From: Butyricimonas sp. Marseille-P3923
Lineage (GTDB): Bacteria > Bacteroidota > Bacteroidia > Bacteroidales > Marinifilaceae
Length of the DNA stretch: 64,000 nucleotides
NCBI RefSeq assembly: GCF_900184685.1
Contig: NZ_FXXL01000007.1
Coordinates: 992,001 to 1,056,000 of the forward strand
Reading direction: 5' to 3'
The translations under genes and the position numbers were made by a program. Positions 2,752-18,802 of the stretch are shown here, one piece after another (positions within the stretch are counted from its first letter, which is position 1; the number at the start of each line of letters is the position of its first letter). Under the pieces are notes generated by a model. It was not told the DNA's origin. It worked only from the letters and a program-made list of their open reading frames with translations, and did no database searches.

Positions 2752-3429
2752 GAGGTAACAACCGTTATTATTGACTATTTCAACAGAGGGATCGGCTTTC
2801 AATATCTTTCGCAATTGTGATATATATGTTGATAATTCCCCTTTCTTGAGGTCATCGTCGAAATTCCATAATTCCTTGCATAATTCCGTACTCTTGATCT
2901 CTTCGTTTCTGCGTGTACAAAATATCAACATGATTTTCCCCTGCATTCCTTTTAATTTTGTCGCCTTACCGTCTATCGTCAAAATATTGGTAACCTTGTC
3001 ATAAGTCATACGCGAAGACAGACGGAATACCCGTTGTTCACCTCTTTCCGCCCTTCTCATCGCATCTTTCAAACGCTTGCCCAAACGATCAACCAAAACC
3101 TTGACAGACCAATCCTTGCTCACGTAATCATCCGCACCCCCGTCCGCTTCCATAACAGACAATCCCTCTTGGTCGTATCCGGTAAATACCACGATAGGCA
3201 CCTGAGTATCATTCTCCCGAATCAACCGGATTACTTCCTCCCCGGTTTTTTCCGGCATTTCGATATCCAATAACAATATATCCCATTCATCCTTTTGGTA
3301 AGCCTCCCATGCCTCATCCCCATTCGTCACGGCATAAACGTCAAATCCTTGCTCCAATAATATTTCCGTGTACGTAATCCGCATCTCCTTCTCGTCCTCG
3401 GCATACAAAAGTTTTATCTTTCTTTCCAT
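2731..3429 (-). CDS. OmpR/PhoB-type response regulator
   Basis: This 232-residue protein has an N-terminal receiver domain (acidic pair E11-D12, phospho-acceptor D55 in LLLDIEMP, conserved Lys in VSKD near residue 107) and a C-terminal winged-helix domain (residues about 140-230, with STYISQLRKIL as the recognition region). It is a DNA-binding transcription factor controlled by phosphorylation. Its partner is the histidine kinase directly upstream, whose reading frame runs 89 bases into this gene. The kinase gene is divergent from the NVEALA/propeller genes with a very short gap, so control of that island by this pair is a natural inference, but no binding site is recognised. Confidence 0.93.
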   Translation of the reverse strand: MERKIKLLYAEDEKEMRITYTEILLEQGFDVYAVTNGDEAWEAYQKDEWDILLLDIEMPEKTGEEVIRLIRENDTQVPIVVFTGYDQEGLSVMEADGGADDYVSKDWSVKVLVDRLGKRLKDAMRRAERGEQRVFRLSSRMTYDKVTNILTIDGKATKLKGMQGKIMLIFCTRRNEEIKSTELCKELWNFDDDLKKGELSTYISQLRKILKADPSVEIVNNNGCYLLVVPDK

Positions 3430-4843
3430 AGTTATCTAATTTTATAGTGAACGTGGAACCTTTTCCCAATTCGCTTTCCACGTGAACTTTCCCTTTATGC
3501 CTTTTCACAATTTTCTGAACGGATGCCAATCCCAACCCGAAGCCTTTTGCTTTCTCATCCCTACCAACTCGCCAATACTCTTCAAAAATATAAGGTAAAT
3601 CTTTTTTAGCAATACCTTTCCCCTCGTCCGTCACTGATACGACAAGGGCTTTCCCCTCCCGGTAACAAGCTACTTTTATAAAAACCGTTTCCCCGGAATA
3701 CTTCACCGCGTTATCCATCAGATTCCGCAACGCGTACACGAACTGTTCCGAGAGCAACAACACGTTCGGCAACCTGTAATCCAACTCTACCCGAATATCC
3801 TTTTCCGGGTTAGCAAACTGCTCTTCCGCTGCCAACGCTACCAATTCCTCTTTCAATGAAATATCCACCCATTCCACTCGTTTGCGGTACATCAACATCG
3901 CCAACTGCAACACGTTACTCATTTCCCTTTTCAGCATGGCTGCTTTTTCCAACCCGATATCACACATCTCCTCGCCTTTCTCCCTATCCGAAACCTTCTG
4001 AATCTGCCGCTGCAATCGAAGAAATAGTCCTTCGACCGCTCCCACGGGTCTTTTCAAATCATGCATTCTTTGTCTTAAACACGCTTCCTGCAATTGTCGC
4101 AACTTCCTTTGTTTCCAAATCCTACAGGCAAAAGATACAATCAACACCACGAGTACCGACCCGACCAAAATAATCCCAGTAAACTGCCACCAGAACCTGT
4201 ATAGAAAATCCTTCCACGTGAAATCAAAAAGCACTCCCACCTTCTCCCCGCTAATATATCCCAATCGCACGTATCCCGCTTCCTCCATATCCATATACCT
4301 CGTGTTACCCGGCGGATATACCTCTTTCGTGTTGCCCAATGAATCTACGCGACGGAAAGCGATTGAGAGATTACCGATTACTTCTTTCGCCCTATGCTTA
4401 ACCAACGAATCCAAACAAGCCAAGGTAATCGGGTTCCGCAAGTTCACGTCGTAAGCCACGATAGCCTCTCTTTCAAAAGCCTTTTCTGAAGAATCCACTT
4501 TTACACGATATTCCTTCTCTCCAATACTTATCAACAACTCTCCTGTTTGAGCATCATTACTAATAGACCTAACAATACTATCAGGTTTCATTGCCTCTCT
4601 TTGACTCAATTCGCCAATATTCCAAAGAGTAGATTCTTTTAACTCTTTTTTTATTCTTCCCTCCTCTCCTGCATACAACAAATAAACAAGCCAGTATTGC
4701 AATAAAATAACAAAAACAATAGCTATTATCGCCATTACTACCTCCTTCAGCAATGGGACACCTCCTTTCGGTTTCAATTTTATGAAGATTTTATGAACTT
4801 GCATCTGTCTTTCTCCTATTTTTTCTCCATATTTTTGTTGCAT
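3341..4843 (-). CDS. Membrane sensor histidine kinase
   Basis: The protein is about 500 residues from the ATG at 4843; the frame also allows a TTG at 4861 and an ATG at 4804. A first membrane helix (VVMAIIAIVFVILLQYW) and a second (FTGIILVGSVLVVLIVSF) enclose a periplasmic sensor region of about 160 residues with no family I recognise. The cytoplasmic part has the phospho-acceptor H-box MHDLKRP, the N-box NLMDNAVKYS, and G boxes DEGKGIA and GFGLGLASV. It should phosphorylate the response regulator encoded next. The C-terminus extends about 30 residues past the usual end of the ATPase domain and overlaps the regulator gene by 89 bases, which is unusually long. The gap to the divergent NVEALA gene at 4888 is only about 44 bases. 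Confidence 0.9.
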   Translation of the reverse strand: MQQKYGEKIGERQMQVHKIFIKLKPKGGVPLLKEVVMAIIAIVFVILLQYWLVYLLYAGEEGRIKKELKESTLWNIGELSQREAMKPDSIVRSISNDAQTGELLISIGEKEYRVKVDSSEKAFEREAIVAYDVNLRNPITLACLDSLVKHRAKEVIGNLSIAFRRVDSLGNTKEVYPPGNTRYMDMEEAGYVRLGYISGEKVGVLFDFTWKDFLYRFWWQFTGIILVGSVLVVLIVSFACRIWKQRKLRQLQEACLRQRMHDLKRPVGAVEGLFLRLQRQIQKVSDREKGEEMCDIGLEKAAMLKREMSNVLQLAMLMYRKRVEWVDISLKEELVALAAEEQFANPEKDIRVELDYRLPNVLLLSEQFVYALRNLMDNAVKYSGETVFIKVACYREGKALVVSVTDEGKGIAKKDLPYIFEEYWRVGRDEKAKGFGLGLASVQKIVKRHKGKVHVESELGKGSTFTIKLDNYGKKDKTFVCRGREGDADYVHGNIIGARI

Positions 4844-4887
4844 ACAACGAAAATAAAACAATGCAATATAAAAACAAATTTTGAAAA

Positions 4888-5109
4888 ATGAAACAATTGA
4901 ATCTAAAAAACACGATTATCGTTGCAGCAATACTGTTAGAAGTATTATTTACAAGTTTTTCACCTATTCATGAAAAAGAAGAAACTACACTACGCAATAT
5001 CGAAGCTCTTTCAAGAGGTGAAAATTCAGTTTCTTCTTCGTGTATTAATGGCGAAGGCAGATGTATCATTAACGGTGAAATCTTATATGGCATGAGAAAG
5101 AAAGACTAA
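4888..5109 (+). CDS. NVEALA-type small exported peptide, divergent short member
   Basis: This 73-residue peptide has a positively charged start, a hydrophobic export segment (TIIVAAILLEVLFTSF) and the family motif NIEALSRGE at residues 37-45. The region after the motif is short and has only two cysteines (C52, C59), unlike the four-cysteine core of the other three peptides in the window. It could be a degenerate copy or a variant. It is the first gene after the divergent two-component system, and the propeller lipoprotein gene begins 5 bases after its stop, without the hairpin that follows the other peptide genes. NVEALA peptides are known as a family in Bacteroidales; I know of no established function. 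Confidence 0.8.
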   Translation: MKQLNLKNTIIVAAILLEVLFTSFSPIHEKEETTLRNIEALSRGENSVSSSCINGEGRCIINGEILYGMRKKD

Positions 5110-5114
5110 CTATC

Positions 5115-6152
5115 ATGAAAAAGCACCTTATCCCACTAATCATCCTCCCGCTATTTTTATCCTGTTCCACGGATAACAGCTATTTGGAGATCCCGGCATC
5201 CATCCAGACCTCGGGTAATGAAATCACCTCAACCCTCGTGACAAACCTTCACGAGTTTGGGATCACGACACCGCTAAAAATCACTAAACACGGGGATTTA
5301 CTCGCAGTGGAACGACGTTATGAAGAAAATAACCTCAGCCTCATCGATCTTTCCAACCGCACCACTCGCGACTGGTTACCTTTCGGCAAAGGGGAAAATG
5401 AAGCATACACAATTGACAATCTATCGGTAAACGAACAAGGGGAACTATCCGTTTTCGATTTTGAAACCGGTAAACTCCATCGCCACAACCCGAAGGCATT
5501 AAGCCGCTCCGCGGCTCATCCCCTCGTGCTGGCAGAAGGCACCAACACTCACCTCTCGGCTATCCAAGGTGACGGATTCGTGATTTCCACCGGGCTTTAC
5601 GAGCAAGGCCGCTACCGTTTTTATTCACTGGACGACGGCAGCGAATCATACGCCGTCCCCTACCCCGTGCATCCCGCTTATCCCGAGTTATCCGATTACG
5701 GGAAAAGCATCCTTTGGGCAAGCACCGTGCTACGCCTACGCCCGGACAACAAGGCTTTCGTCTGCACCGACATCCGTAGCGGTCAACTCGATATCTGTCG
5801 CATCAACGGCAACACGATCTCGCTCGTCTGCCGTCACACGTACTACTATCCCCACGTGGACATCAATGACGGTAAATACCCCGACGTGGCTTATTACTCG
5901 GATAACGTCACGGGCTTCCGGGAAGTGGCAGTGTCTAACGAACGAATTTACGTACTTTATTCCGGCAAGACTTACAAAGAATATGGGCAAAAAATCATCA
6001 ACAGTTCCACCCTCCTCGTCTTCGACTGGAACGGAACCTTATTAAATAATTACACCCTGCCGGAAGCCGCCAATTACCTCGCGTTCGACACGGAAGAAAA
6101 CCTACTCTACGGGACTACTCCCGACGCGAAACTTGTCCAATTCAACTTGTAA
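5115..6152 (+). CDS. BF3164/TolB-like six-bladed beta-propeller lipoprotein (first)
   Basis: This 345-residue protein begins with a lipoprotein signal (lipobox LFLSC near residue 17), so it is probably anchored to a membrane and may be surface exposed. The rest is beta-rich with repeated blade-like segments and ends with the family hallmark VFDWNGTLL followed by a last blade containing LLYGTTPDAK. Two similar proteins follow in the island at 7128 and 13370, each just after an NVEALA peptide gene. Binding the peptide, or a ligand shared with it, is an inference from this fixed pairing. Codon and base use here is ordinary for the window, whereas the other two propellers are AT-rich. Confidence 0.82.
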   Translation: MKKHLIPLIILPLFLSCSTDNSYLEIPASIQTSGNEITSTLVTNLHEFGITTPLKITKHGDLLAVERRYEENNLSLIDLSNRTTRDWLPFGKGENEAYTIDNLSVNEQGELSVFDFETGKLHRHNPKALSRSAAHPLVLAEGTNTHLSAIQGDGFVISTGLYEQGRYRFYSLDDGSESYAVPYPVHPAYPELSDYGKSILWASTVLRLRPDNKAFVCTDIRSGQLDICRINGNTISLVCRHTYYYPHVDINDGKYPDVAYYSDNVTGFREVAVSNERIYVLYSGKTYKEYGQKIINSSTLLVFDWNGTLLNNYTLPEAANYLAFDTEENLLYGTTPDAKLVQFNL

Positions 6153-6163
6153 CCACCATCATC

Positions 6164-6583
6164 ATGAAAAAAACACACCTTATATATATAGGTATACTTG
6201 CCACATGTTCGGCAGCCATCATCATATGTTGGCTTGCCTTTACCGCTCCCGTTCAAGAATGGACAAACGCCCCGCTCACCACGGTGGAGATATTGCAAGA
6301 TTCCGTCAATTTGCAAACCCTGCATTACGACGATCACCCCGATATAATCTTCATCATCAAGAACACGGGTAAACATCCCCTCATCATCCGGGATGTCGTC
6401 ACCACTTGCGGCTGTACCGCCCCCCAATGGGACAAACGTCCCGTTCTACCGGGCAAGACAAAAGATATAAAAGTAACCTTCAAGCCCAACTCGCTTGGAC
6501 GTTTCAACAAAACGATACAAGTGTTATGTAACACTTCATCCAAAATACACGAGCTGAAGCTAGACGGCAACGTGATTGAATAG
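6164..6583 (+). CDS. DUF1573 exported protein
   Basis: The 139-residue protein has an N-terminal membrane/signal segment (residues about 6-27) and one DUF1573 domain, an immunoglobulin-like fold, with the hallmark TTCGCTAP (C82, C84) and a C-terminal strand LKLDGNV. Such proteins are common and exported in Bacteroidetes, and their molecular role is not established. The start is 11 bases after the first propeller gene, so it is probably co-transcribed with the peptide and propeller. The C-x-C pair might bind metal or form a disulfide; this is a guess from the motif alone. Confidence 0.85.
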   Translation: MKKTHLIYIGILATCSAAIIICWLAFTAPVQEWTNAPLTTVEILQDSVNLQTLHYDDHPDIIFIIKNTGKHPLIIRDVVTTCGCTAPQWDKRPVLPGKTKDIKVTFKPNSLGRFNKTIQVLCNTSSKIHELKLDGNVIE

Positions 6584-6611
6584 AAGTCAAACAAACCATT
6601 AAACATCATCA

Positions 6612-6690
6612 GAGGGGAGAAAAGCGGTGCCGGAACAATCCTAGCAAGACCCCGACACCGCCGACTTCCTCAAAAAAGAAGAAAGTATAA
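6612..6690 (+). ncRNA. Candidate structured leader RNA before an NVEALA peptide gene (copy A)
   Basis: A stem GCGGTG (6624-6629) / CACCGC (6656-6661) encloses a loop that starts GGAAC (6632-6636) and closes with CCCCGAC (6650-6656). The same ordered elements, with a different but still pairing outer stem, occur at 12534-12632 before the next NVEALA gene pair. Both copies share the 9-mer ACGTCATCT further down (6713-6721 here) and lie about 170-180 bases before the peptide ATG. Stem bases differ between copies while pairing is kept, which suggests a real RNA. I could not match it to a named riboswitch class. Here it sits inside the gene cluster with no obvious promoter directly before it. Confidence 0.5.
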
Positions 6691-6787
6691 AGGTATAAAA
6701 AATCCGAGACAAACGTCATCTCTCCTGTTGAAAGGATATACACGGGTAAAAGACGGAAAGAAATTATTATAAAAAAAAATAACAAGC

Positions 6788-7069
6788 ATGAAAAAGAAAA
6801 CATTAAATATTTTGTTCATATTCATTATCGCAATAATAACAAGCATTAGCATAAATATTAATTTATCAAAAAAAGAAAGTTTTGGAAATCTTGCTCTTAA
6901 AAATATTGAGGCATTAGCAAGAGGTGAGGGCGGCTCAGGCTCTGAATCAGGAAAAGCGACTTGTTACACAAGAGCTTCCGTAAATGTTAACGACGAATAT
7001 TTACGATGTGTTGAATGCAAATATTATTCAGGTACAGGTGTTACAACTGGGGGATATTGCAAATGGTAA
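6788..7069 (+). CDS. NVEALA-type small exported cysteine-rich peptide (second)
   Basis: The 93-residue peptide has a strongly hydrophobic export segment (LNILFIFIIAIITSI), the motif NIEALARGE at residues 39-47, a Gly/Ser-rich linker, and then a core with C59, C74, C77 and C91, that is Cys-x14-Cys-x2-Cys-x13-Cys, ending in Lys-Trp. The spacing matches the peptides at 12712 and 13045 almost exactly although the residues between differ. This looks like a precursor: an export leader, a conserved recognition motif, and a folded core held by disulfides or a metal. The gene is preceded by a leader RNA and followed by a strong hairpin. No function is established. Confidence 0.85.
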   Translation: MKKKTLNILFIFIIAIITSISININLSKKESFGNLALKNIEALARGEGGSGSESGKATCYTRASVNVNDEYLRCVECKYYSGTGVTTGGYCKW

Positions 7070-7075
7070 ATTTAA

Positions 7076-7104
7076 AATCCAAGGGTTTAATATACCCTTG
7101 GATT
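7076..7104 (+). terminator. Hairpin between peptide gene and propeller gene
   Basis: ATCCAAGGGT (7077-7086) and ACCCTTGGAT (7094-7103) form a perfect 10-bp stem with a 7-base loop, 7 bases after the peptide stop. A run of seven T lies later, at 7121-7127, directly before the next ATG. It may act as a partial terminator or RNA-stabilising stem, leaving more peptide than propeller message. Confidence 0.7.
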
Positions 7105-7127
7105 CATAAACAAATAACTCTTTTTTT

Positions 7128-8144
7128 ATGAAACTCTACATATTATCTATTTTTCTCGTATTCTGTTCATGCACAGAAAAAAGCATATTGAATCACAGCT
7201 CAATAAGATTCATTGAAGACTTTCCCAAAACACTTGAAATCACGGGAGAAAAAGTACCGTTAGACCTCGTGGGACCGTCAGCCTTCTTTATTATAGATTC
7301 TTTGCTCGTGATTCAAAATTACAACCAATCGAATTACCTTTCCGTCTATAATTTATGCCATTTGAATAAAATAAATGATTTCATTCCACAAGGAAGAGGG
7401 GCTAATGAATTTTTAGGGTTCACTTACTGTGATTATTATGATATTGATTCAAATCAAATACACATATATTTTACAGACATCAATCAAAGAAGTATGTTTT
7501 CTTTTAATCTTACACGTTCTATCATAGAAAACAATACTATCACGACACCACTGACCAGTTTCCGTGAAATTCCTTTCAAAACAAAATTCAAAAAAAACAT
7601 GCCATTATTCACTCGCATTTACAAGCACGAGAAAAAACAAATAGCATACACGCAACATAATCTCCAAAATGAAATATCTCGTGAATACATCTTATATGAT
7701 AAAATTACCGACATCGAGAGAAATCAAGTCGGTTCCGCAGATAAAATCAAACCGGACTTTAAAAAACTAGCCCAAGCAATGCTTCAATTTGACCAAATAA
7801 ATATTCTCGACCTCGAGCAAGAAGAACACCTTTCACTTACAACCTCCAGAAATTTCATGCATTTACCTTTGGATGATAGCAAAGAACCGAACATGTACTA
7901 CTCGGACCTATGCGTAACAGACAAACAAATATATGCCTTATACGCGAATCAACCAATAACACGCTGGGGATTAGACTCAAAAAAATCAGAAATTCAAGTA
8001 TACGACTGGAACGGAAACCCTGTATGCAAAATAATTGTTCCCGAGTATCTTTTATATATTAATATCGACGAGAAAAACAAACAACTTTACGGTATTACTG
8101 CAGACGAAGAATTGTATCGATTTAATATACAAAATATCGAATAG
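7128..8144 (+). CDS. BF3164/TolB-like six-bladed beta-propeller lipoprotein (second)
   Basis: The 338-residue protein has a lipoprotein signal ending VFCSC and the same blade pattern as the first propeller, with the closing hallmark VYDWNGNPV and KQLYGITADEELYRFN at the C-terminus. The early segment IPQGRGANEFLGF corresponds to LPFGKGENEAY and CKKGRGSNEFIAP in the other two copies, a shared position that may mark the ligand side. The gene is visibly AT-rich compared with the transglutaminase-like gene downstream. It follows the peptide gene and its hairpin and precedes a thioredoxin-fold lipoprotein by 32 bases, so the three are likely one unit. The function is unknown. Confidence 0.82.
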   Translation: MKLYILSIFLVFCSCTEKSILNHSSIRFIEDFPKTLEITGEKVPLDLVGPSAFFIIDSLLVIQNYNQSNYLSVYNLCHLNKINDFIPQGRGANEFLGFTYCDYYDIDSNQIHIYFTDINQRSMFSFNLTRSIIENNTITTPLTSFREIPFKTKFKKNMPLFTRIYKHEKKQIAYTQHNLQNEISREYILYDKITDIERNQVGSADKIKPDFKKLAQAMLQFDQINILDLEQEEHLSLTTSRNFMHLPLDDSKEPNMYYSDLCVTDKQIYALYANQPITRWGLDSKKSEIQVYDWNGNPVCKIIVPEYLLYINIDEKNKQLYGITADEELYRFNIQNIE

Positions 8145-8176
8145 ACATAATAATAAATAAATTTTCAACCTATACC

Positions 8177-8719
8177 ATGAAGTTCATTTGTATTTTATAC
8201 ATTTTCATTTTTTGTATTTCATGCAATCCAAATAAAGAAAGAGCTGAAATCATAGTGAAACAATGGCTTGAAAAGGAAATCAAATTCCCTAATACGATAA
8301 ACATTAAACAAGATTCATTATGGAAATCATTAACAAGCAAAGAATTTAAAATTCTAACCATCGTGGACTCCAATAGTTGTACTGAATGCAGGTTAAAATT
8401 ACACGAATGGGGAAAATACATAAAAGAGAGTGATTCTATTAACACAAGTATCGCATTCATTTTTATTGTTAACACGAAAGACTACGCTATCGTTGAAACG
8501 CTAAAAAAGAAGAATAAATTCAGTTTACCAATTTTTCATGATTATGAAAATAAAATGGGTAAACTCAACCTATTCCCTAAAGACCCAAATTATCAAACCT
8601 TCTTGTTAAACAAGGAAAATAAAGTAATTCTAATTGGCAACCCTATAGGAAACCTCCCTTTATGGAAATTATACAAAAAAGTATTATCAGAAGCATTATC
8701 AACAAAAAAATCCTCATGA
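8177..8719 (+). CDS. Thioredoxin-fold lipoprotein with CxxC motif
   Basis: The 180-residue protein has a lipobox CISC (lipidated C16) and, after about 50 residues, a thioredoxin/TlpA-like segment: a strand KILTIVDS followed at once by SCTEC (C68, C71) and an alpha helix, then a later strand FIFIVN and a stretch YQTFLLNKENKVILIGNP like the cis-Pro and beta-hairpin part of redoxins. I infer a membrane-anchored thiol-disulfide protein of the periplasm or cell surface. Its position beside exported four-cysteine peptides makes it a candidate for forming or reshuffling their disulfides. The stop codon overlaps the next start (ATGA at 8716-8719), so translation is probably coupled. No cis-proline is certain, so the enzymatic role is open. 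Confidence 0.68.
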   Translation: MKFICILYIFIFCISCNPNKERAEIIVKQWLEKEIKFPNTINIKQDSLWKSLTSKEFKILTIVDSNSCTECRLKLHEWGKYIKESDSINTSIAFIFIVNTKDYAIVETLKKKNKFSLPIFHDYENKMGKLNLFPKDPNYQTFLLNKENKVILIGNPIGNLPLWKLYKKVLSEALSTKKSS

Positions 8720-10836
8720 TAAAAATCATTCCATTGTTGACCCTCCTCCTCCCCTTTGCCTGTACCCGCTATCCCGCCGGAGTGGAAGAAACCCTCTCCC
8801 TCGCCGGGAGCAATCGTGGAGAACTGGAAAAAGTCTTACGCCACTATCGAGAAGCTCCTGCCGACTCCCTGAAATACAAAGCCGCCTGTTTCTTGATCGA
8901 CAACATGAAATGGCATCTTTCCACGGAACAAGCTATATTCCCGGATTCTTCCATTTATAAATGGCATACCAGAATAGACAGCTTATACAAATACGCCACG
9001 GGTAACATACGGGACACCATGCTAAATTCAAGATATTACGAGGAAAGAAATTATTATTTCCAAATCGCGATAAAAAAATTAATCAACGCTATGCCCGTTG
9101 ACACCCCGACAATCAAAAAAGGGACATTTCCCGATCCGAAATACATATCTTCCGTTTTTCTCGTGTCACATATAGAAAATGCTTTCCAAGCATGGCAAAC
9201 CTTTCCGCACGCCTCCTATCTCACCTTTGAACAATTCAAAGAATTGATTCTCCCCTACCGGGCTATCGCAGGCTACCCGTTCTTCGAGAACGGGAAAAGA
9301 CTAAACGACATGTTCAAAGGCTGGCTGGATCGTTCCACCATGAAAGATATACACGGTTTCATCTTACGTTACAATCATTACACTCGATTTATACGTTCGT
9401 CATTAGCTATCAATCAAGGGCAACACGTGGGTGTATATGACCTTTTCCTTGGATATAAAGGGGATTGTATTTGCATGGCAAACAACGCTTGCAACATATT
9501 CCGGGCTTACGGGATCCCCGTGGTCGTGGACTACAACGTGTCTTTTCGGGAGAAAACAAACAGACATTTCCACTGTAAATTTATTGACAGCACGACAAAT
9601 CAAAATTTTTATAACAAAACTTTCAATTTCGACACCCTCAGCCCCTACTCCAGCGCTTCCCCCAGTTTTTTCAGGAACACGTTCGGCGCACAAACAAACA
9701 GTCCCTACATGTTAAAAGCCGAAGGGGAATACTTACCGGACTATTTTGATACCCCTTGCCTCAAAGAGGTAACCGGAGAATATTACCGGGTTACACGAGT
9801 GTCCCTTCCCTTCGACAAAGATACACCCAATCACTTGGCATTCCTTTACACGTTCGACAACACGCCAACAGGTACAGCTCCCGCGACATGGGGAAAAATC
9901 GACAAAGCACGAAAACAGGTCGTGTTCGAGAACGCGGTGTACCACACGCTTTATTTTCCCTCTTATTTCCGGGGGGACACGCTCGTGTCATTCGCTTCTC
10001 CGTTTTACATCGTTCCTGTTGATTCGCTCCCCGGATCATATCGAATTGTGGAAATAGTCCCGGAACATTCAACCCGTAAAGACACTCTTGTTCTTCTCCG
10101 TAAATTTCCGGAAAAACCTTACTTGAAAGAACAAGCAAAAAGAATGATAGGCGGTCGATTCGAGGGGGCTAACCGCGAGGATTTTTCAGACTCGACACTG
10201 CTTTACACCATCCGGGAAGCCCCCATCCTCAATCTCCAGGAATACACCCCGGAAATATGCCATCCGTTCCGTTTCTATCGATACGTCGCCCCGGGTGAGT
10301 TTCCCCGAAGCAACATGAGCATCATTGAATTTCTCACGGACGAATATACCCCTGAAGATTCTCTAAAACGAGCCACTCCCTTACCCGTTTTTTCTCCCGA
10401 GGTTACCCGGAAGCAAAAGGGGCAAGAAACATACATGAAATTACACCCGGATATCGCAAAATATCCCAATCAACGTTGGGGTCCTTTATATAACACGAGT
10501 ATGCAGTATCCTTCTTATGAAAGCACCAACGAAATGTCATTAAAACGTCCCATGAAAGTGAAAAAAATTCGCGTAGCCCCCGGTAACGCAGAAAACCATA
10601 TCATGCTCGGACATCGCTATCAACTCTTGTACTGGGACAACGAATGGAAAAACGCCGGGACTAAAATTGCCCGCCACAACTACCTTCTATTCAACAACGT
10701 ACCTAGCGACCGCATATACTGGCTACGCGATCTCACGACAGGCAAAGAGGAACTCCCGTTCCTTTATCACGATAACAAACAATTATTCATATACCACGAT
10801 ACCATTATCCCGTTAAAAACAAATCTCCTTTACTGA
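8716..10836 (+). CDS. Transglutaminase-fold lipoprotein, large
   Basis: I use the ATG at 8716, which gives 706 residues with a lipobox (LLPFAC, Cys about 16), rather than the upstream ATG at 8662 that would bury the signal. Residues about 215-300 hold a transglutaminase-like core: GYKGDCICMANNACN (catalytic-type C251), then HFH (H284/H286) and D291, in the order Cys-His-Asp expected of the fold. The C-terminal half, about 400 residues, is beta-rich and unrecognised. Transglutaminase-like proteins of bacteria may be proteases, crosslinkers or inactive binding proteins; the activity is not evident. It is translationally coupled to the thioredoxin-like lipoprotein, so a shared job on envelope or secreted proteins is likely. 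Base use is higher in GC than the two genes before it. Confidence 0.75.
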   Translation: MIKIIPLLTLLLPFACTRYPAGVEETLSLAGSNRGELEKVLRHYREAPADSLKYKAACFLIDNMKWHLSTEQAIFPDSSIYKWHTRIDSLYKYATGNIRDTMLNSRYYEERNYYFQIAIKKLINAMPVDTPTIKKGTFPDPKYISSVFLVSHIENAFQAWQTFPHASYLTFEQFKELILPYRAIAGYPFFENGKRLNDMFKGWLDRSTMKDIHGFILRYNHYTRFIRSSLAINQGQHVGVYDLFLGYKGDCICMANNACNIFRAYGIPVVVDYNVSFREKTNRHFHCKFIDSTTNQNFYNKTFNFDTLSPYSSASPSFFRNTFGAQTNSPYMLKAEGEYLPDYFDTPCLKEVTGEYYRVTRVSLPFDKDTPNHLAFLYTFDNTPTGTAPATWGKIDKARKQVVFENAVYHTLYFPSYFRGDTLVSFASPFYIVPVDSLPGSYRIVEIVPEHSTRKDTLVLLRKFPEKPYLKEQAKRMIGGRFEGANREDFSDSTLLYTIREAPILNLQEYTPEICHPFRFYRYVAPGEFPRSNMSIIEFLTDEYTPEDSLKRATPLPVFSPEVTRKQKGQETYMKLHPDIAKYPNQRWGPLYNTSMQYPSYESTNEMSLKRPMKVKKIRVAPGNAENHIMLGHRYQLLYWDNEWKNAGTKIARHNYLLFNNVPSDRIYWLRDLTTGKEELPFLYHDNKQLFIYHDTIIPLKTNLLY

Positions 10837-10851
10837 CAAGGAGATTTGTTT
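10817..10851. terminator. Bidirectional terminator overlapping the transglutaminase-like stop codon
   Basis: AAACAAATCTCCTT (10817-10830) and AAGGAGATTTGTTT (10838-10851) form a perfect 14-bp stem with a 7-base loop. It contains the TGA stop and lies 7 bases before the end of the convergent DUF6266 gene, so it can serve both directions. Confidence 0.8.
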
Positions 10852-10857
10852 ATAACA

Positions 10858-11484
10858 TTATCCCAGTATTCCCAGCGTCCCGGAAGCCCTCTTCCCGTTA
10901 GCGCTAGTGGCGAAACCGTAAACAACCAGTTGCCCCGCATCCCACCCCTCGGGCAGCATCCATGCCAACTCGCCACACTCTCCCCTTGTCCCCAACTCCA
11001 CGAGCCGACTTCTCCGTAACACTCGCTCGAACACCGCACCAAACAGGAGATCGTCCTTCGCCATCCGGGGCATTAACGGCTGGCTTCCCCAGCGGAACAC
11101 GACTTGCCGCTCGCCCGCCTCCACTTCCGCCCGGATCTGGGGCATCCCGAGTTCTCCGCCCGAGAGGGACAGCGACAACAAATCCACGGTAGTGTTCAAC
11201 TCGTCGTCCACCTCGACTTTCCCGATATTATCCCTCACGAAACAATTCGAGCATACTTTTCGTGAAGCCGAGCAATACCCGGCTTCCAGCACGACGATAA
11301 AACCACGACGAAGCGCCGTGACCACCCGCATACGCTCCCGCTGCTTCAATTGTGCCAAGGTCTTGGCGTCCTTTATCACGATCGCTTTTCCCCGCGCCAC
11401 GTGTTTGTCGCCCAATTTGTACGCCGTCACGTTCCCCACGGAACCTGAAAGCCCCTGAAATATAGTAGGATCAAATATAGCCAT
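10858..11484 (-). CDS. DUF6266 family protein (first)
   Basis: From the ATG at 11484 the protein has 208 residues and begins MAIFDPTIFQGLSGSVGN, matching the family-type start MAIL..-G.SGK of the next gene; an ATG three codons earlier is less likely. No signal peptide, membrane helix or enzyme motif is seen. Basic residues cluster in the first third (QLKQRERMRV) and the rest looks beta-rich. The gene is distinctly GC-rich beside the AT-rich peptide genes. It lies 12 bases after the sister gene at 11497-12138 and is probably co-transcribed. DUF6266 proteins occur in multiple copies in Bacteroidetes; I know of no function. Confidence 0.72.
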   Translation of the reverse strand: MAIFDPTIFQGLSGSVGNVTAYKLGDKHVARGKAIVIKDAKTLAQLKQRERMRVVTALRRGFIVVLEAGYCSASRKVCSNCFVRDNIGKVEVDDELNTTVDLLSLSLSGGELGMPQIRAEVEAGERQVVFRWGSQPLMPRMAKDDLLFGAVFERVLRRSRLVELGTRGECGELAWMLPEGWDAGQLVVYGFATSANGKRASGTLGILG

Positions 11485-11496
11485 AACTACCACCCG

Positions 11497-12138
11497 TTAA
11501 GATTTACGAATAGAAAAATACATACACGGAGAATAGCGTTTCCCATCCACCGTCCCGAAGAAACAATACAAGTGCGCCTCCGTCCATTCGCCTTCCGGCA
11601 AATACACGCACCCTTTCCCGTCGGCGCGGCATCCCCGCACATTTTCCAACACGACGGGCTGATAGGGTTCGCTATCGAAAATGGCAGCCACCATCAACCG
11701 GTCGGTCGATTGAGCCGTCACCGTCGACGAGTTATCTTGCCACGCCACCTCCAGCTGCCCCGCGTCAGCCGCCACCTGCCGCATCCCGAAGGGTAATTGC
11801 AAACTACCCGCCGTCAGCATTAAACGGGGATAGTCAACGTAATCGTCCGCCCCGAACACGTTCATATTCGCGTGTAAAAACCAATGGTACCCCGAAAGTC
11901 TTTCTTCCTCTCGTGCCACGATCGTGTAAACTTGTTCCAGCACGCTTCCCCGTGCAGCCCGGTGCATCGTCTGCGCACCCGGTAATTTCGACCGTTGCGC
12001 CGTTTGTCCTCCCGTGCGGGGATTCGCTATCGTTCTCGGCGATTTCCGCGCGTAAGTCTTTTTGCCTACCTTGTAGACCACGTAGCCATCGATTTTTCCC
12101 GAAGCTCCCACTAACATAGATTCATCTAAAATTGCCAT
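11497..12138 (-). CDS. DUF6266 family protein (second)
   Basis: The 213-residue protein starts MAILDESMLVGASGKIDGYVVYKVGKK-, the characteristic N-terminus of the family, followed by a basic stretch with a conserved NPRT. The C-terminal AHLYCFFGTVDGKRYSP resembles YHLYPFFGTADNDGFSP in the third copy at 63130, which ties the three genes together. It is cytoplasmic by sequence, with no signal. It has its own AT-rich leader of about 90 bases with a two-tier hairpin and a candidate promoter at 12236-12266. The two DUF6266 genes split the NVEALA island in two and are transcribed against it, as if inserted. Confidence 0.75.
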   Translation of the reverse strand: MAILDESMLVGASGKIDGYVVYKVGKKTYARKSPRTIANPRTGGQTAQRSKLPGAQTMHRAARGSVLEQVYTIVAREEERLSGYHWFLHANMNVFGADDYVDYPRLMLTAGSLQLPFGMRQVAADAGQLEVAWQDNSSTVTAQSTDRLMVAAIFDSEPYQPVVLENVRGCRADGKGCVYLPEGEWTEAHLYCFFGTVDGKRYSPCMYFSIRKS

Positions 12139-12235
12139 TCTTTAAATTTTTTAATTAAACATTTAGCCGTTTTCCTTGAAAATTTTTGCCCTATTCAAGG
12201 TTGTTACGGCTTTTTCTCGTTAAAATAATAGTATA

Positions 12236-12266
12236 TAAATATACAACATTTTTTTTCTAAATGCAA
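12236..12266 (-). promoter_or_regulatory. Candidate promoter of the DUF6266 pair
   Basis: On the minus strand TATATTTA (12236-12243) is one base off the TAnnTTTG -7 box, and TTG (12264-12266) lies 20 bases upstream of it. It would start a leader of roughly 90 bases before the ATG at 12138. Confidence 0.35.
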
Positions 12267-12302
12267 GTAATTTTCTATATATTTTTTATCAAAATAGAGC
12301 AC

Positions 12303-12335
12303 GAGTGGGACTTGAATGGGAAATGAGTGGGAAAT
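12303..12335. repeat. Three 11-bp tandem repeats (GARTGGGAMWT)
   Basis: GAGTGGGACTT, GAATGGGAAAT and GAGTGGGAAAT follow one another without a gap. A similar 11-bp array with a different unit occurs at 30818-30861. No gene covers it. Confidence 0.75.
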
Positions 12336-12466
12336 CATATCAACAGGATTTCTATAAAATAAATCTAAAACGTCCATTATATTCTGGAAATCACCTTAAG
12401 CATCCCTGAAACCGGGCAGAAATCCTCCATCCCATGAAAAATTATGAGGATTCTCTTAACTTGTTA

Positions 12467-12499
12467 TTGACTATTTCCCGAATTTTCGCTATATATTTG
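12467..12499 (+). promoter_or_regulatory. Candidate promoter of the second NVEALA block
   Basis: TATATTTG (12492-12499) fits the -7 consensus; TTG at 12467-12469 is a possible -33 element, with a rather long 22-base spacer. Transcription would begin near 12506 and give a leader of about 205 bases that includes the structured element. Confidence 0.42.
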
Positions 12500-12533
12500 A
12501 AACGTTGTTACAGACAGAAAACAAAAATATGAA

Positions 12534-12632
12534 CCGAGAGTAAAGGCGACGTCAGGAACTACCTTGAGAAACCGTCCCCGACTATCGCCTGCCCTCTCCT
12601 AAAAAAAGTAAGGAGGTGAAGCGAAGATAGTG
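12534..12632 (+). ncRNA. Candidate structured leader RNA before an NVEALA gene pair (copy B)
   Basis: Outer stem GGCGA (12545-12549) / TCGCC (12585-12589); inner pairing GTC with GAC; loop starting GGAAC (12554-12558) and closing with CCCCGAC (12576-12582). A second hairpin CTCCT (12596-12600) / AGGAG (12611-12615) has an A-rich loop, and ACTATC (12581-12586) could instead pair with GATAGT (12626-12631), so two alternative folds are possible. The order of elements matches copy A at 6612-6690, and the 9-mer ACGTCATCT recurs (12653-12661). The class is unassigned. Confidence 0.55.
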
Positions 12633-12711
12633 TTTTTATGGGAAAAAGATGTACGTCATCTATATTTAGAAGTGTTTTAAAAAGAAAAGAATACATTCAA
12701 AAAGATGAATT

Positions 12712-12975
12712 ATGAAGAATAAAATTTTAATGACAATTACAATCTTTAGTGTTGTACTAGTAGCTTGTATAAGTATAAACTTCACGACTTCAACGCAAGC
12801 TAATATGTATTTAGCAAAAAACATCGAAGCTCTAGCAAGAGGTGAAGGAAGCGGTGGTTTTGTTGTTTGTTACTCTGAATCAGTTGTAAGAACAGGTTAT
12901 ACTTATTACGATTGTGGAACTTGCACTAAGATTTACAACGAAAAAGGTAGAGGAAATCAAAGTAAATGTTTCTAA
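12712..12975 (+). CDS. NVEALA-type small exported cysteine-rich peptide (third)
   Basis: The 87-residue peptide has a hydrophobic export segment (residues about 5-22), the motif NIEALARGE at 37-45, then Gly-Ser-Gly-Gly and a core with C53, C68, C71 and C86 (Cys-x14-Cys-x2-Cys-x14-Cys), ending in Phe. Its sister at 13045 has the same cysteine positions to the residue and shares GYTYYDCG-C and NEKG-GN, so the pair arose by duplication followed by change mainly in the export segment and linker. The gene follows the structured leader and is followed by a hairpin. It is part of the second peptide/propeller block. Function unknown. Confidence 0.86.
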   Translation: MKNKILMTITIFSVVLVACISINFTTSTQANMYLAKNIEALARGEGSGGFVVCYSESVVRTGYTYYDCGTCTKIYNEKGRGNQSKCF

Positions 12976-12978
12976 GAA

Positions 12979-13012
12979 AATAATATGACATGCATTTTCA
13001 TGAAATATTATT
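12979..13012 (+). terminator. Hairpin between the third and fourth peptide genes
   Basis: AATAATAT (12979-12986) pairs with ATATTATT (13005-13012), with a further inner CATG/CATG pairing (12989-12992, 12999-13002). It begins 3 bases after the peptide stop. AT-rich, so more likely an RNA-processing or attenuating stem than a strong terminator. Confidence 0.55.
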
Positions 13013-13044
13013 AAAAGAACATAGAACGAAATATCAAATATATA

Positions 13045-13311
13045 ATGAAAAAAATAATCATTACAATCCTGACCTTAAATGCGGCAATAATTGTATGTAT
13101 TGGAATAAATTTCAATATATCAAAACACGCAACAAATCTAGCATTGAAAAACATTGAAGCTTTAGCAAGTGGTGAAGGAAGCAGTAGTAGTTATAACATT
13201 TGTTATTATTCATCTGTTGTAAAAGTTGGATATACCTATTATGATTGTGGAAGTTGTACGCAAGTCCAAAATGAAAAAGGTAAAGGGAATTACACTAAAT
13301 GCTTTCATTAA
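13045..13311 (+). CDS. NVEALA-type small exported cysteine-rich peptide (fourth)
   Basis: The 88-residue peptide is a close relative of the one at 12712: export segment IITILTLNAAIIVCIGI, motif NIEALASGE (36-44), a serine-rich linker, and a core with C53, C68, C71 and C86 ending in Phe-His. The aromatic run GYTYYDCG before the central Cys-x2-Cys and the basic NEKGKGN after it are kept. Two peptides under one leader suggest the products may act together or differ in target. A hairpin follows 9 bases after the stop, then a propeller lipoprotein gene. Confidence 0.86.
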   Translation: MKKIIITILTLNAAIIVCIGINFNISKHATNLALKNIEALASGEGSSSSYNICYYSSVVKVGYTYYDCGSCTQVQNEKGKGNYTKCFH

Positions 13312-13320
13312 ATAAAACAA

Positions 13321-13348
13321 GCATGGCAAGATAATTATTTTGCCATGC
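13321..13348 (+). terminator. Hairpin between the fourth peptide gene and the third propeller gene
   Basis: GCATGGCAA (13321-13329) and TTGCCATGC (13340-13348) form a perfect 9-bp stem with a 10-base loop, again placed just after a peptide stop codon and before a propeller gene. Confidence 0.68.
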
Positions 13349-13369
13349 ATTACCATTAATTCTATAAAG

Positions 13370-14395
13370 ATGAAACAGATTATCTACTTACTAGTTTCTA
13401 TTATATATAGTAGTTGTCAATCACTTCCGAATAATACAATAATTATCAACGACTTTCCATCGTCTATACATTTAAAAGGAAATGAAAATCAATATTTTGA
13501 TAAAGAATTGGGTATTATCAGTTTACAAACTACTAACCGCTATTTTATATGTAATACACATAGAACAGACTACCATTTTTCAATTTACTCTAAAGATACT
13601 ATAATTAAACGTATTAATTTGTGCAAAAAAGGACGAGGTTCAAATGAATTTATCGCACCTGCATTTTTTTCCCAATTTGAAAATCAAAATAATCAAACAA
13701 AGATATGGGTTTTAGATCGAGCAGTATCACAATTAGTGAAAATTAATATAGACCTAAGTATAAAAGAAGATAAAACTTATATAGAAGAATCATTATCATT
13801 ACTTGATTATATTAGATTTCCCCTAAAAGATATATTTTTCATTAACGACACATTACTCTTTGGAACAGAAGACAATGATGAATGTAGACACTTTCTTTTA
13901 AATTTGAATGATTCTTCTATTCATTATGTCCCACAAAAAATCAAATTTTCTAAAAGCTATAATCCTTTCCCTATTTCACAAGTAATGTCCACTTACAATT
14001 CTGATAAAAAATACGTTGCATCAGCTTATTTCAATTTTCCCCGAATAGATTTAATAAATAATAAAGGAGAATTATTAAAAACAATTTTCTATAAAGAATT
14101 CATTAATCCCACGAAAGTCACCATATCACAAGAAAATGAAGAGTATTTTTCAGCTATTTGCAGTGACCAGAAATACATATATGCTTTATATAATAGAGAA
14201 AATATAGAAATAGATGAAATAAAAACAAAATCTTCAATATTCGTATTCACATGGGAGGGAGAACCTATCCGAGAATATATAATTCCTTATGCAACTTATA
14301 TTAACGTGGACAATCAAAACAAAACCTTATATGCCATTGATATTAATAAAGAAAGTTCTATTGTCACCACTTATTCTTTACCTTATCAACAATAA
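13370..14395 (+). CDS. BF3164/TolB-like six-bladed beta-propeller lipoprotein (third)
   Basis: I place the start at the ATG 13370, giving 341 residues with a lipoprotein signal (IIYSSC, Cys 15); an in-frame TTG at 13340 lies inside the preceding hairpin and is unlikely. The blade pattern and the closing hallmark VFTWEGEPI followed by NKTLYAIDIN match the propellers at 5115 and 7128. The gene is strongly AT-rich. It ends 15 bases before the RND efflux adaptor without a hairpin between, so read-through into the efflux genes is possible. As with its relatives, binding of the neighbouring peptide is inferred only from constant pairing. Confidence 0.8.
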   Translation: MKQIIYLLVSIIYSSCQSLPNNTIIINDFPSSIHLKGNENQYFDKELGIISLQTTNRYFICNTHRTDYHFSIYSKDTIIKRINLCKKGRGSNEFIAPAFFSQFENQNNQTKIWVLDRAVSQLVKINIDLSIKEDKTYIEESLSLLDYIRFPLKDIFFINDTLLFGTEDNDECRHFLLNLNDSSIHYVPQKIKFSKSYNPFPISQVMSTYNSDKKYVASAYFNFPRIDLINNKGELLKTIFYKEFINPTKVTISQENEEYFSAICSDQKYIYALYNRENIEIDEIKTKSSIFVFTWEGEPIREYIIPYATYINVDNQNKTLYAIDINKESSIVTTYSLPYQQ

Positions 14396-14410: not shown

Positions 14411-15478
14411 ATGAATTACAAGTTTATACTACCCATCGTAGCCTCTCTCCTTTTGCTTGCTTGTAATGGTAAGAGTAAAAAAACAGAGGAAGAGGAACTA
14501 GCCAAGATGGAACAGCAGGAGGAAAACCACGTGGTGAAAGTGCAAGTGGCACGAGTGGCGCCGTTTAATCTGGAATTGATCAGTAACGGGAAGGCGGAAG
14601 CGACACGGAAAGCAACCGTCAATTTCGAGGTGGCGGACATGATCAGAGAGGTGAGGGTGAAAAATGGCGACCGAGTGAGAAAAGGGGACGTACTTGCCAT
14701 CGTGGATGATTACAAGGCACAACAGACGCTGGAAGACGCACGCCTTACCATGGAAAAAGCGAATCTCGACTTGAAACTGGCCGTGATATCGGAAGGATTG
14801 CAGTCGTTGGAGGACACGGTGAAGATTCCTCCCAAGAGAATGGAGGCAATATACCTGCAAAGCGGTTATCAAAACAGCATTAACGCCTACAAGAAAGCGC
14901 AACGGGAGTATTCACTCGTGAGGACAACCGCACCTTTCGATGGCATCGTGGCAGACTTGGAAGCTAAACCGTATAACCAGACGGCAGCATATAAATCGCT
15001 CTGCACCTTGATAGACGATTCAAAAATGGAAGTCGTGTTCAACGTGCTGGAAACAGAAATATCCAACCTCCAAGCGGGTATGGAAGTGGAAATCACACCA
15101 TACGCCAATCATGAACACACGCTGAAAGGAGAAATCACGGAAGTGAATCCCCGGATTGACGAGAACGGAATGGTGAAAGTGAAAGCCGTTACCGGGAACC
15201 GGGGAGCTTTGCTCGTGGACGGGATGAACGTGAGTATTCTCGTGAAACGGCAGATAGATAATAAAATCATTGTCCCGAAGTCGGCAGTATTGCCCCGCCA
15301 AGGGAAGAAAGTCGTGTTCGTCTATCAAAAGGGGAAAGCCATCTGGCGATACGTCACCACGGGTTACGAGAACAGTTCGGAAGTCAGCGTGGAAGAAGGT
15401 ATCGTACCCGGAGACACGGTAATTCACGAGAATAATCTTGGGTTGTCGCACATGAACAACGTGACAATTGACAATTGA
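14411..15478 (+). CDS. RND efflux periplasmic adaptor (HlyD/AcrA-like membrane fusion protein), lipoprotein
   Basis: The 355-residue protein has a lipobox LLLAC at residue 18, then a lipoyl-type half (VADMIREVRVKNGDRVRKGDVLAIVDD), an alpha-helical hairpin (about 100-165), the second lipoyl half (YSLVRTTAPFDGIVADL) and beta-barrel and membrane-proximal parts. It links an inner-membrane RND pump to an outer-membrane channel. Two RND permease genes follow, so this is the adaptor of that pump; no TolC-like channel gene is present here and one must come from elsewhere. The last codons (NVTIDN) are already part of a CAATTGACAATTG-type repeat that fills the gap to the next gene. Confidence 0.92.
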   Translation: MNYKFILPIVASLLLLACNGKSKKTEEEELAKMEQQEENHVVKVQVARVAPFNLELISNGKAEATRKATVNFEVADMIREVRVKNGDRVRKGDVLAIVDDYKAQQTLEDARLTMEKANLDLKLAVISEGLQSLEDTVKIPPKRMEAIYLQSGYQNSINAYKKAQREYSLVRTTAPFDGIVADLEAKPYNQTAAYKSLCTLIDDSKMEVVFNVLETEISNLQAGMEVEITPYANHEHTLKGEITEVNPRIDENGMVKVKAVTGNRGALLVDGMNVSILVKRQIDNKIIVPKSAVLPRQGKKVVFVYQKGKAIWRYVTTGYENSSEVSVEEGIVPGDTVIHENNLGLSHMNNVTIDN

Positions 15479-15560
15479 AAGTTGAAAATTGAAAATTGAA
15501 AATTTAAAGAAGCGGTGGCAAGCGGAGAGAAATCTAAAATCTAAAATCATTAAATCTAAA
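15463..15560. repeat. Low-complexity dispersed repeats (CAATTGAAAATT and AATCTAAAATC types)
   Basis: The end of the adaptor gene and the following gap consist of repeated CAATTGACAATTGAAAGTTG-like units, then a short GC-richer stretch, then AATCTAAAATCT-like units. The same pair of units, in the same order, appears at 18709-18800. Confidence 0.75.
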
Positions 15561-15568
15561 ATTAATCC

Positions 15569-18799: not shown

Positions 18800-18800
18800 A
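18709..18800. repeat. Dispersed low-complexity repeats inside the 3' end of an RND gene
   Basis: Units of the form AATTGAAAATGG, AAGTTGAAAATG and AATCTAAAATCATC fill the last codons of the first RND permease. The same unit types are intergenic elsewhere (15463-15560, 42687-42722, 62086-62140, 63112-63145). Confidence 0.75.
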
Positions 18801-18802
18801 AT

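Follow-up and report, generated by a model that had tools for sequence, protein, structure and literature searches.

An NVEALA peptide and propeller lipoprotein locus of Butyricimonas as a candidate peptide secretion and sensing system

What is the task of a locus of Butyricimonas sp. Marseille-P3923 in which small exported peptides of the NVEALA type alternate with propeller lipoproteins beside a divergent two-component system? The locus is part of a stretch of 64,000 nucleotides (G000:C1:992001-1056000), which was analysed as a whole and is called the window; other genomes, contigs and loci are designated by G, C and L numbers. It appears to consist of two layers, a near-invariant core module and variable peptide-propeller cassettes accompanied by S26, thioredoxin-like and RND genes. 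In its main lines it may encode a chain of peptide secretion and sensing, a reading to which a probability of about 0.5 is assigned.

According to this reading, the NVEALA precursor would be inserted by Sec and anchored by its N-terminal helix. A site of the form N-[IV]-E-A-L-A, about 21 residues beyond the membrane, would then be cut, most likely by a dedicated S26 signal peptidase. The freed cysteine peptide would be oxidised, here by a thioredoxin-like protein and in some relatives by MauE proteins, and exported by a linked RND pump. The core peptide with its C-x6-C loop would bind the A-type propeller lipoprotein in the periplasm, where the periplasmic domain of the kinase would read the pair. 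The response regulator would act on direct repeats before the peptide-propeller operon and thus close a feedback loop, and the remaining peptides, each with its own propeller, would form a variable output. Computation covered the set of genes and its conserved order, covariation, the enrichment of repeats and the presence or absence of short S26 genes; the steps of cleavage, export and binding as well as the regulator site and the direction of the signal we infer.

The core module of kinase, peptide and propeller

The initial annotation had described four NVEALA-type peptides, three propeller lipoproteins, a DUF1573 protein, a thioredoxin-like and a transglutaminase-like protein and a divergent two-component system, all of which were found in place. 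On the plus strand, the order from 4888 to 14395 is P1, PropA, DUF1573, P2, PropB, thioredoxin-like, transglutaminase-like, two minus-strand genes, P3, P4 and PropC. Kinase and response regulator are oriented opposite to P1, from 4861 down to 2731. The content of 4888-14395 thus stands, but these edges were too narrow: the two-component genes at 2731-4861 and the region 14411-22698 belong to the unit, and the S26 gene and the pump had been missed. Here the second block runs on along the same strand with an RND adaptor, which begins 15 bases after PropC, two RND permeases and a short S26 signal peptidase. The parts are as follows.

2731..3429, minus: OmpR-type response regulator (PF00072 80 bits, PF00486 34 bits; nearest NCBIfam model RprY, below cut-off)
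3341..4861, minus: sensor histidine kinase whose periplasmic domain comprises about 150 residues (HATPase_c 90 bits)
4778..4797, unstranded: direct repeat TTTTATGAAGATTTTATGAA, proposed as the site where the response regulator acts on the P1 operon
4888..5109, plus: P1, core (class I) peptide precursor with C-x6-C loop (profile built from window peptides and relatives)
5115..6152, plus: PropA, A-type six-bladed propeller lipoprotein (PF15869 55.8 bits; structure model)
6164..6583, plus: DUF1573 protein with hydrophobic N-terminal segment (PF07610 103 bits)
6788..7069, plus: P2, class II NVEALA peptide with four Cys past the motif (PF14055 51.9 bits)
7128..8144, plus: PropB, propeller lipoprotein (PF15869 55.6 bits)
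8177..8719, plus: thioredoxin-like lipoprotein carrying CTEC (Pfam 16.5 bits, cut-off 26)
8716..10836, plus: putative transglutaminase-like lipoprotein of a family that recurs in the loci
12712..12975, plus: P3, class II NVEALA peptide (PF14055 31.0 bits)
13045..13311, plus: P4, class II NVEALA peptide resembling P3 (PF14055 34.8 bits)
13370..14395, plus: PropC, propeller lipoprotein (PF15869 43.9 bits for 13340-14395)
14411..15478, plus: RND periplasmic adaptor (TIGR01730 160 bits, cut-off 94.9; PF16576)
15569..18799, plus: RND permease (PF00873 291 bits)
18803..21844, plus: RND permease (PF00873 565 bits)
21841..22698, plus: short S26 signal peptidase, overlapping the permease by 4 bases (PF10502 117 bits; TIGR02227 106.9 bits, cut-off 47)

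P2, P3 and P4 exceed the Pfam cut-off for NVEALA (PF14055, 27 bits). P1, like many other core peptides, falls below it with 13.8 bits and reaches 47.6 bits with a hidden Markov model (HMM) from window peptides and relatives, the seed of which includes P1 itself. All three propellers exceed the cut-off of PF15869 (TolB_like, 29.2 bits). PropA is modelled as a β-propeller (predicted local distance difference test score, pLDDT, 85.1; predicted template modelling score 0.84), and the PDB matches of a Foldseek search with this model include designed six-bladed propellers as well as NHL and WD40 propellers and indicate no function; by sequence, no convincing solved relative was found. For the N-terminal part of the kinase, the model (pLDDT 86.6) shows two long helices flanking a mixed α/β domain. 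The response regulator scores 132 bits against the RprY equivalog cut-off of 370, by which the pair does not count as the RprXY two-component system.

In order to follow the core through the family irrespective of gene context, 56 genomes were searched with A1, an alignment of 17 core propellers with 48% mean column identity. This search gave 31 matches above 340 bits (30 distinct), the next match in the family lying below 100 bits; among 393 order-level genomes outside the family, at most 209 bits were reached. An A1 search of named genomes confirmed at least five loci. In all 29 testable distinct cases, the A-type propeller has a peptide directly upstream and a divergent kinase beyond the peptide, and this also holds for the 12 modules (12/12) outside the A1 seed alignment. 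A response regulator follows the kinase in 24 of the 29 modules; L143, L231 and L235 are truncated where the retrieved sequence stops, and in L140 the kinase is split over two open reading frames. L128, a complete module whose propeller end is like that of L130, was merged with L130, and L239 (at a contig end), L244 and L246 were left out of the core count. The following observations do not fit an invariant module: in L138 and L242 no response regulator was found behind the kinase, and the distant A1 matches in L244 (209 bits) and L246 (173 bits) lack both peptide and kinase in the upstream sequence present. A degenerate A-type propeller copy with internal stop codons is found at G128:C15:41735-42073.

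Among the core peptides, 27 were identified by the NVEALA HMM and two by eye (L236 and L240), the latter having lost the NVEALA motif and being recognised by their loop. The spacing C-x6-C is exact in 29/29, and the tail continues with Gly followed by Ile, Leu, Met or Val in 28/29. Among 51 further NVEALA peptides, not part of the 29 listed modules, 38 contain four to seven Cys and only two have two Cys so spaced; both are core copies, namely L128 and L147, the latter located beside a kinase and response regulator at a contig end.

Whether peptide, propeller and sensor vary together was analysed by partial Mantel tests on 23 modules, with the distances of the kinase catalytic half and of the response regulator held constant; six of the 29 modules were left out for want of a response regulator, for lack of a matched His motif or because of a cut kinase. 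The mature peptide is correlated with the sensor (r 0.39) and with the propeller (r 0.48), and the propeller with the sensor (r 0.61; each p 2e-4). For the leader in the same modules, r is −0.23 with the sensor and −0.17 with the propeller. A non-redundant set of 21 modules agrees with these results. If the propeller is also held constant, peptide-sensor covariation drops to r 0.15 (p 0.02), but peptide-propeller covariation keeps r 0.32 (p 2e-4) if the sensor is held constant, and the propeller thus looks like the closer partner of the peptide.

The advantage of the mature peptide over the leader rests on the correction for shared history, and the following points speak against it. No tree was used in the correction, and after it the leader follows the catalytic half of the kinase (r 0.42). 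Uncorrected, the leader is correlated with the propeller (r 0.31) and the sensor (r 0.23), and with another leader cut (uncorrected, n=26) the leader-propeller value rises to 0.58, and the mature part retains 0.66 once the leader is accounted for. With the divergent kinase present in 29/29 modules and its sensor half covarying with the mature peptide, the earlier assignment of the kinase to the unit is upheld, and peptide, propeller and kinase can with good confidence be regarded as working together as one unit.

A core peptide that acts on the kinase need not be secreted. MgrB, as portrayed in the excerpted text of PMC10576120, has a cytosolic N-terminus, a single helix and a periplasmic tail with two essential Cys, and acts on a kinase. 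The small core precursor with its one loop has the same layout, and it might likewise stay uncut in the inner membrane and tune the kinase through a periplasmic disulfide. However, unlike what is outlined there for MgrB and PhoQ, the locus contains a conserved cut-like site with a short S26 peptidase, a cognate propeller and secretion genes, and leader and helix do not covary with the kinase sensor after correction. Moreover, the two core peptides that lost NVEALA kept C-x6-C, and the IFA-Q of L236 resembles an ordinary cut site. A membrane-bound connector of this type is therefore improbable, and the core peptide is somewhat more readily understood as the signal of the kinase than as an anchored modulator.

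Upstream of each of the 29 core peptides, at most 180 bases were scanned for direct repeats of 8 bases with spacings of 6-30. At a spacing of 11 bases, 7 or 8 of 8 positions match in 14/29 regions, with perfect repeats in eight, compared with eight regions and two perfect repeats at 10 bases, six and one at 12 bases, and 1-5 and 0-2 at the 22 other spacings. Repeats one helical turn apart are expected for a dimer of an OmpR-type regulator, and the response regulator may act at these repeats before the P1 operon. In the genome, TTTTATGAAGATTTTATGAA (4778-4797) is the sole exact match, two further sites having 2 mismatches. It falls within the first codons of the kinase reading frame as called; since relatives also suggest this, the kinase probably starts later, downstream of 4843. 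Two limits count against the proposed control: the enrichment was judged against the other spacings alone, with no shuffle control, and the genome search found no exact repeat copies before P2 or P3, which leaves a wider regulon unsupported.

In three loci of two genomes, a membrane one-component regulator seems to stand in the place of the kinase. L156 and L157, both in G105 of another family, contain a C-x7-C peptide followed by a propeller and facing a two-helix membrane protein, and in L146 (G159, same family as the window) a protein of this kind precedes a C-x7-C peptide and a DUF5128 propeller. The three proteins align with each other. The L157 protein has a PF00486-like DNA-binding domain at 23.7 bits, below the cut-off of 26.2, and the L156 protein has no PF00486-like match. 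Their sensor part aligns with the kinase sensors (hhalign probability 91%, E 1.1e-6, 111 columns). The peptide keeps its layout where a one-component regulator replaces kinase and response regulator, which supports a sensing role. The sensor half may, however, be of a type widespread among Bacteroidetes kinases; if so, the argument would be weaker.

Pairing of peptides and propellers

The association of peptides with propellers extends beyond the core. In the genome of the window, four PF15869 and four NVEALA matches exceed the cut-offs, and all of them as well as P1 are adjacent, the fourth pair being located on C6; two further NVEALA matches, in frames of 368 and 506 codons, stayed below the threshold and were not counted. 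Among the 56 family genomes, a PF15869 match lies within 3 kb of 37/51 NVEALA matches (E up to 0.002), on the same strand in all 37 and with NVEALA upstream in 29 of them. In four genomes assembled into one or two contigs, 2-7 NVEALA matches lie within 1.5 kb of PF15869, with 0.003-0.12 expected. Of the 88 NVEALA genes in the fetched loci that are testable and non-redundant, 85 are followed on the same strand by a propeller that starts at most 1.5 kb downstream (28 A-type, 27 other PF15869-like, 25 DUF5128-like and five of an unnamed cluster taken for propellers). Two of the three remaining genes overlap a propeller; three genes at contig ends were dropped from this count. At the order level, all five genomes with NVEALA over the cut-off, that of the window included, carry PF15869, compared with 13 of 119 overall (hypergeometric 7e-6).

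For comparison, twenty arbitrarily placed 16-kb stretches (320 kb) from five genomes, that of the window and four relatives, served as controls. They contain no NVEALA and no PF15869-like gene, one DUF5128-like propeller, five kinases, four regulators, two transglutaminase-like genes and one DUF1573 gene. The 81 cluster loci (1,198 kb, window included) contain 21 RND permeases, 17 adaptors, 13 outer-membrane factors, 21 S26 and 44 thioredoxin-like genes against none in the controls, a contrast that is lessened by the fact that the locus HMMs were built from those same loci, overlapping loci were left unmerged and the controls come from 5 genomes.

In the reverse direction the pairing is weaker: an NVEALA Pfam match lies within 3 kb of only 32/78 PF15869 matches over the cut-off. 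The initial annotation would have given up its proposal if propellers occurred mostly without NVEALA genes; this is not so from peptide to propeller (85/88), but by Pfam it is in part so from propeller to peptide. Some unpaired propellers are situated in tandem arrays inside clusters, and G150, G155, G129 and G060 give no significant Pfam match for NVEALA but have, near a propeller, a precursor built in the same way. At most other loci checked in these four genomes no precursor was seen, and the many propellers with no recognisable peptide count against the proposed chain. Propellers so often without a nearby Pfam NVEALA gene would suit unrelated envelope genes that are loosely co-located, but order, strand, covariation and presence/absence statistics contradict such an explanation, which is hardly credible. 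Chance co-location is rejected on the basis of order, strand and covariation together with the 29/29 modules, the 85/88 pairs and the hypergeometric value.

Maturation, thiol chemistry and export

The motif pattern was matched by 75 of 91 NVEALA peptides, the 16 others being left out of the site counts. Ala occupies −3 in 72/75, seven residues being allowed there, and Glu +3 in 68/75. The distance from the membrane helix to the site has a median of 21 residues (10-90%: 18-24). Signal peptidases prefer A-x-A, and NVEALA has the look of a site for an enzyme of this type, placed about 21 residues outside the membrane, a distance that is unusual but fixed. In divergent precursors, AKA in G150, AMA in G155, VLA-Q in G060 and IFA-Q in L236, all found by eye, likewise point to cutting of this type. 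Two points weigh against it: the residue at −1 provides no evidence for a cut site, because the pattern required Ala, Gly, Ser or Thr there, and most sites depart from the Bacteroidetes Q-rule, as stated in the excerpt of PMC5837995, since Gln is found at +1 in just 9/75. On balance, the precursor is probably cut at NVEALA. In L266, three successive precursors with AIA or AFA motifs (7428-8277) are located upstream of two DUF5128-like frames, an S26 gene and an RND set.

The short S26 protein conforms to signal peptidase I in its TIGR02227 score and in its Ser and Lys boxes (SDSM and KRCIGLPG). Short S26 genes are present in 14/20 NVEALA-bearing but 0/36 other genomes of the family (Fisher 6.7e-9). 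Short and long types were sorted by eye, short meaning one match piece that spans nearly the whole model; if every S26 gene not of the long type is counted, the figures are 15/20 and 3/36 (5e-7), this wider recount alone including the other S26 genes of G147, G167, G121 and G172. The genome of the window has one other S26 gene, a 465-codon frame taken for the housekeeping copy. It is rather likely that the dedicated S26 protein makes the NVEALA cut, against which stands the distant position of the short S26 gene from the core module in G125, G126 and G128.

The thioredoxin-like protein, which lies below the Pfam cut-off in the window, has a relative above it (L124 7733-8293, 27.4 bits), and CxxC is present in 35/35 thioredoxin-like neighbours of more than 150 amino acids. 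It may plausibly handle the peptide cysteines. Beyond the motif, the number of Cys is even in 41/51 peptides outside the 29-module list. MauE/DoxX-type membrane proteins, possible disulfide partners, are found in L127 (5745-6776), L160 (9503-10534) and L242 (4222). Even Cys numbers, thioredoxin-like and DUF1573 neighbours and MauE in some relatives would also suit a sensor of envelope thiol state or folding, in which propeller and kinase would read the peptide as a redox reporter, its secretion being a side effect. Such a sensor leaves S26, the pump, the diversity of peptides and their cognate propellers unexplained and is very improbable.

The adaptor and permeases belong to RND efflux families (TIGR01730 and PF00873). 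An RND outer-membrane factor is absent from the operon span 14411-22698 and present near pairs in L163, L262, L266 and L271; RND, adaptor or outer-membrane factor genes occur among or beside pairs in several families (e.g. L163, L245, L262, L266, L268 and L271). Export of the peptide by this pump is proposed only tentatively, and it is countered by the drug or metal annotation, not peptide, of RND pumps of this kind.

The propeller had been proposed to bind or display the matured peptide at the cell surface. Binding gains support from the pairing and the covariation, display does not. As given in the excerpt of PMC5080379, the Bacteroides-type signal for surface export of lipoproteins consists of acidic residues after the lipid Cys. 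Three or more acidic residues at +2 to +7 were found in just 4 of 149 lipobox-bearing propellers, although this Bacteroides-type signal may not be that of the genus. Surface display is thus unsupported and the rarity of the signal weakly suggests a periplasmic site, since the signal of the genus itself may differ.

Variable cassettes, known systems and neighbouring genes

If the class II peptides were antibacterial, their adjacent propellers would confer immunity, orphan tandem propellers would represent spare immunity and the core peptide would be the inducer. This regulated antagonism is compatible with secretion and sensing, but gives the propellers a different main job. In its favour, the class II mature peptide covaries with the adjacent PF15869 propeller (r 0.50, p 5e-4, n=18) beyond its leader (r 0.20, p 0.02), and propellers follow one another in a row in L126 (seven) and L145 (six) with no peptides between, save one small open reading frame in L126. 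The cassettes are AT-rich, with a GC content in 2-kb windows of 34% (P2-PropB-thioredoxin) and 31% (P3-P4-PropC) against about 45% in the surroundings, and the same core is joined to different cassettes in G000, G127 and G124 (the window, L132 and L126). However, pairs with DUF5128-like propellers covary weakly (mature r 0.21, p 0.01, n=24), hardly above their leaders (r 0.16, p 0.05), and immunity would not require the kinase to which the core propeller is coupled. Antagonism as the main task is rather unlikely. The same grade, rather unlikely, befits the combined scheme, in which a Sec-inserted, S26-cut and RND-exported disulfide peptide signal, read by propeller and kinase or one-component regulator, would steer polymorphic cassettes of inter-strain weapons and immunity.

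Among known systems, the pheromone systems pln and blp of lactic acid bacteria resemble the locus in a small peptide beside kinase and regulator, in a leader type common to the Cys peptides of the locus, and in direct repeats. In contrast to these, the precursor here has a membrane helix and no double-glycine leader, a propeller lipoprotein, S26 and RND are added, and the host is Gram-negative. The test for a double-glycine leader failed, as the precursors start with a hydrophobic helix, and the window genes scanned, those between 988 and 22698, include no C39 ABC exporter, no genome-wide search being made. Because the locus would work like an inducing-peptide system and yet failed the test for leader and exporter, it was assigned to no known system. 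For a peptide quorum-sensing two-component system, in which a secreted peptide would act on the kinase beside it, the features observed are gene order, repeats and covariation. LuxP and LuxQ likewise pair an extracytoplasmic binding protein with a kinase, but here the ligand would be a gene-encoded peptide and the binding protein a propeller lipoprotein. Bacteroidetocins and other Bacteroidales clusters of ribosomally synthesized and post-translationally modified peptides (RiPPs), small secreted peptides with clustered genes, mostly have double-glycine leaders and PCAT exporters, in so far as the excerpt of PMC10352776 covers them, whereas the likely machinery here is S26 and RND. A known bacteriocin or RiPP class was rejected for lack of a double-glycine leader and of a PCAT among the scanned window genes.

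Parts of the locus belong to the Pfam families NVEALA (PF14055), TolB_like (PF15869) and DUF5128 (PF17170), which are named with no function given. The word NVEALA occurs in no paper of the open-licence literature searched, BF3164 in one, and the Pfam accessions solely in five papers whose titles suggest chance strings. In the portions of that literature retrieved, no peptide signal that is encoded by a gene and has a receptor of its own was found described for Bacteroidales, and on Bacteroidetes peptide pheromones mainly reviews and Gram-positive work turned up. A term search of a 2025 review on gut Bacteroidales (PMC12632263) gave neither quorum nor pheromone. If the proposed chain is true, signal, receptor, protease and exporter would be obtained at once, NVEALA and TolB_like would gain a job, the RND pump would be a peptide exporter, and gut bacteria of the Butyricimonas type would have a route to sense kin or rivals.

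For the transglutaminase-like protein the Pfam scan gave no match, and the possible fold is argued solely from a Cys...GIP...His pattern; the strict form is matched by 12/23 members of the family, the window copy not being among them. By-eye correction makes 8716 the more likely start of this gene and 13370 (ATG) that of PropC. Between the blocks (10858-12138), one of the two minus-strand genes is a DUF6266 gene and the other clusters with it; relatives are also found near propellers in L125 and L131. Beyond the two-component genes lies a possible accessory gene:

988..2751, plus: Wzy_C and TPR membrane protein (PF04932 73.8 bits)

Its family occurs 24 times in the cluster loci and not in the controls. 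Relatives are located behind the core pair of peptide and propeller in L124, L128, L129, L130, L134 and L137, with one more gene in between in L124 and L134, and are themselves followed by a GHL10 hydrolase in all of these loci except L129.

An anti-phage defence system was rejected, as PADLOC gave no match for seven window proteins, and likewise a mobile element, as the two parts searched gave no match (PropA in plasmids, PropB in phages). An IS1595-type transposase is located one gene from a peptide-propeller pair in L139 (8986-10026). In the window, the S26 gene is followed on the other strand by a UvrA-like ABC protein (22700-25534), named by reading its sequence.

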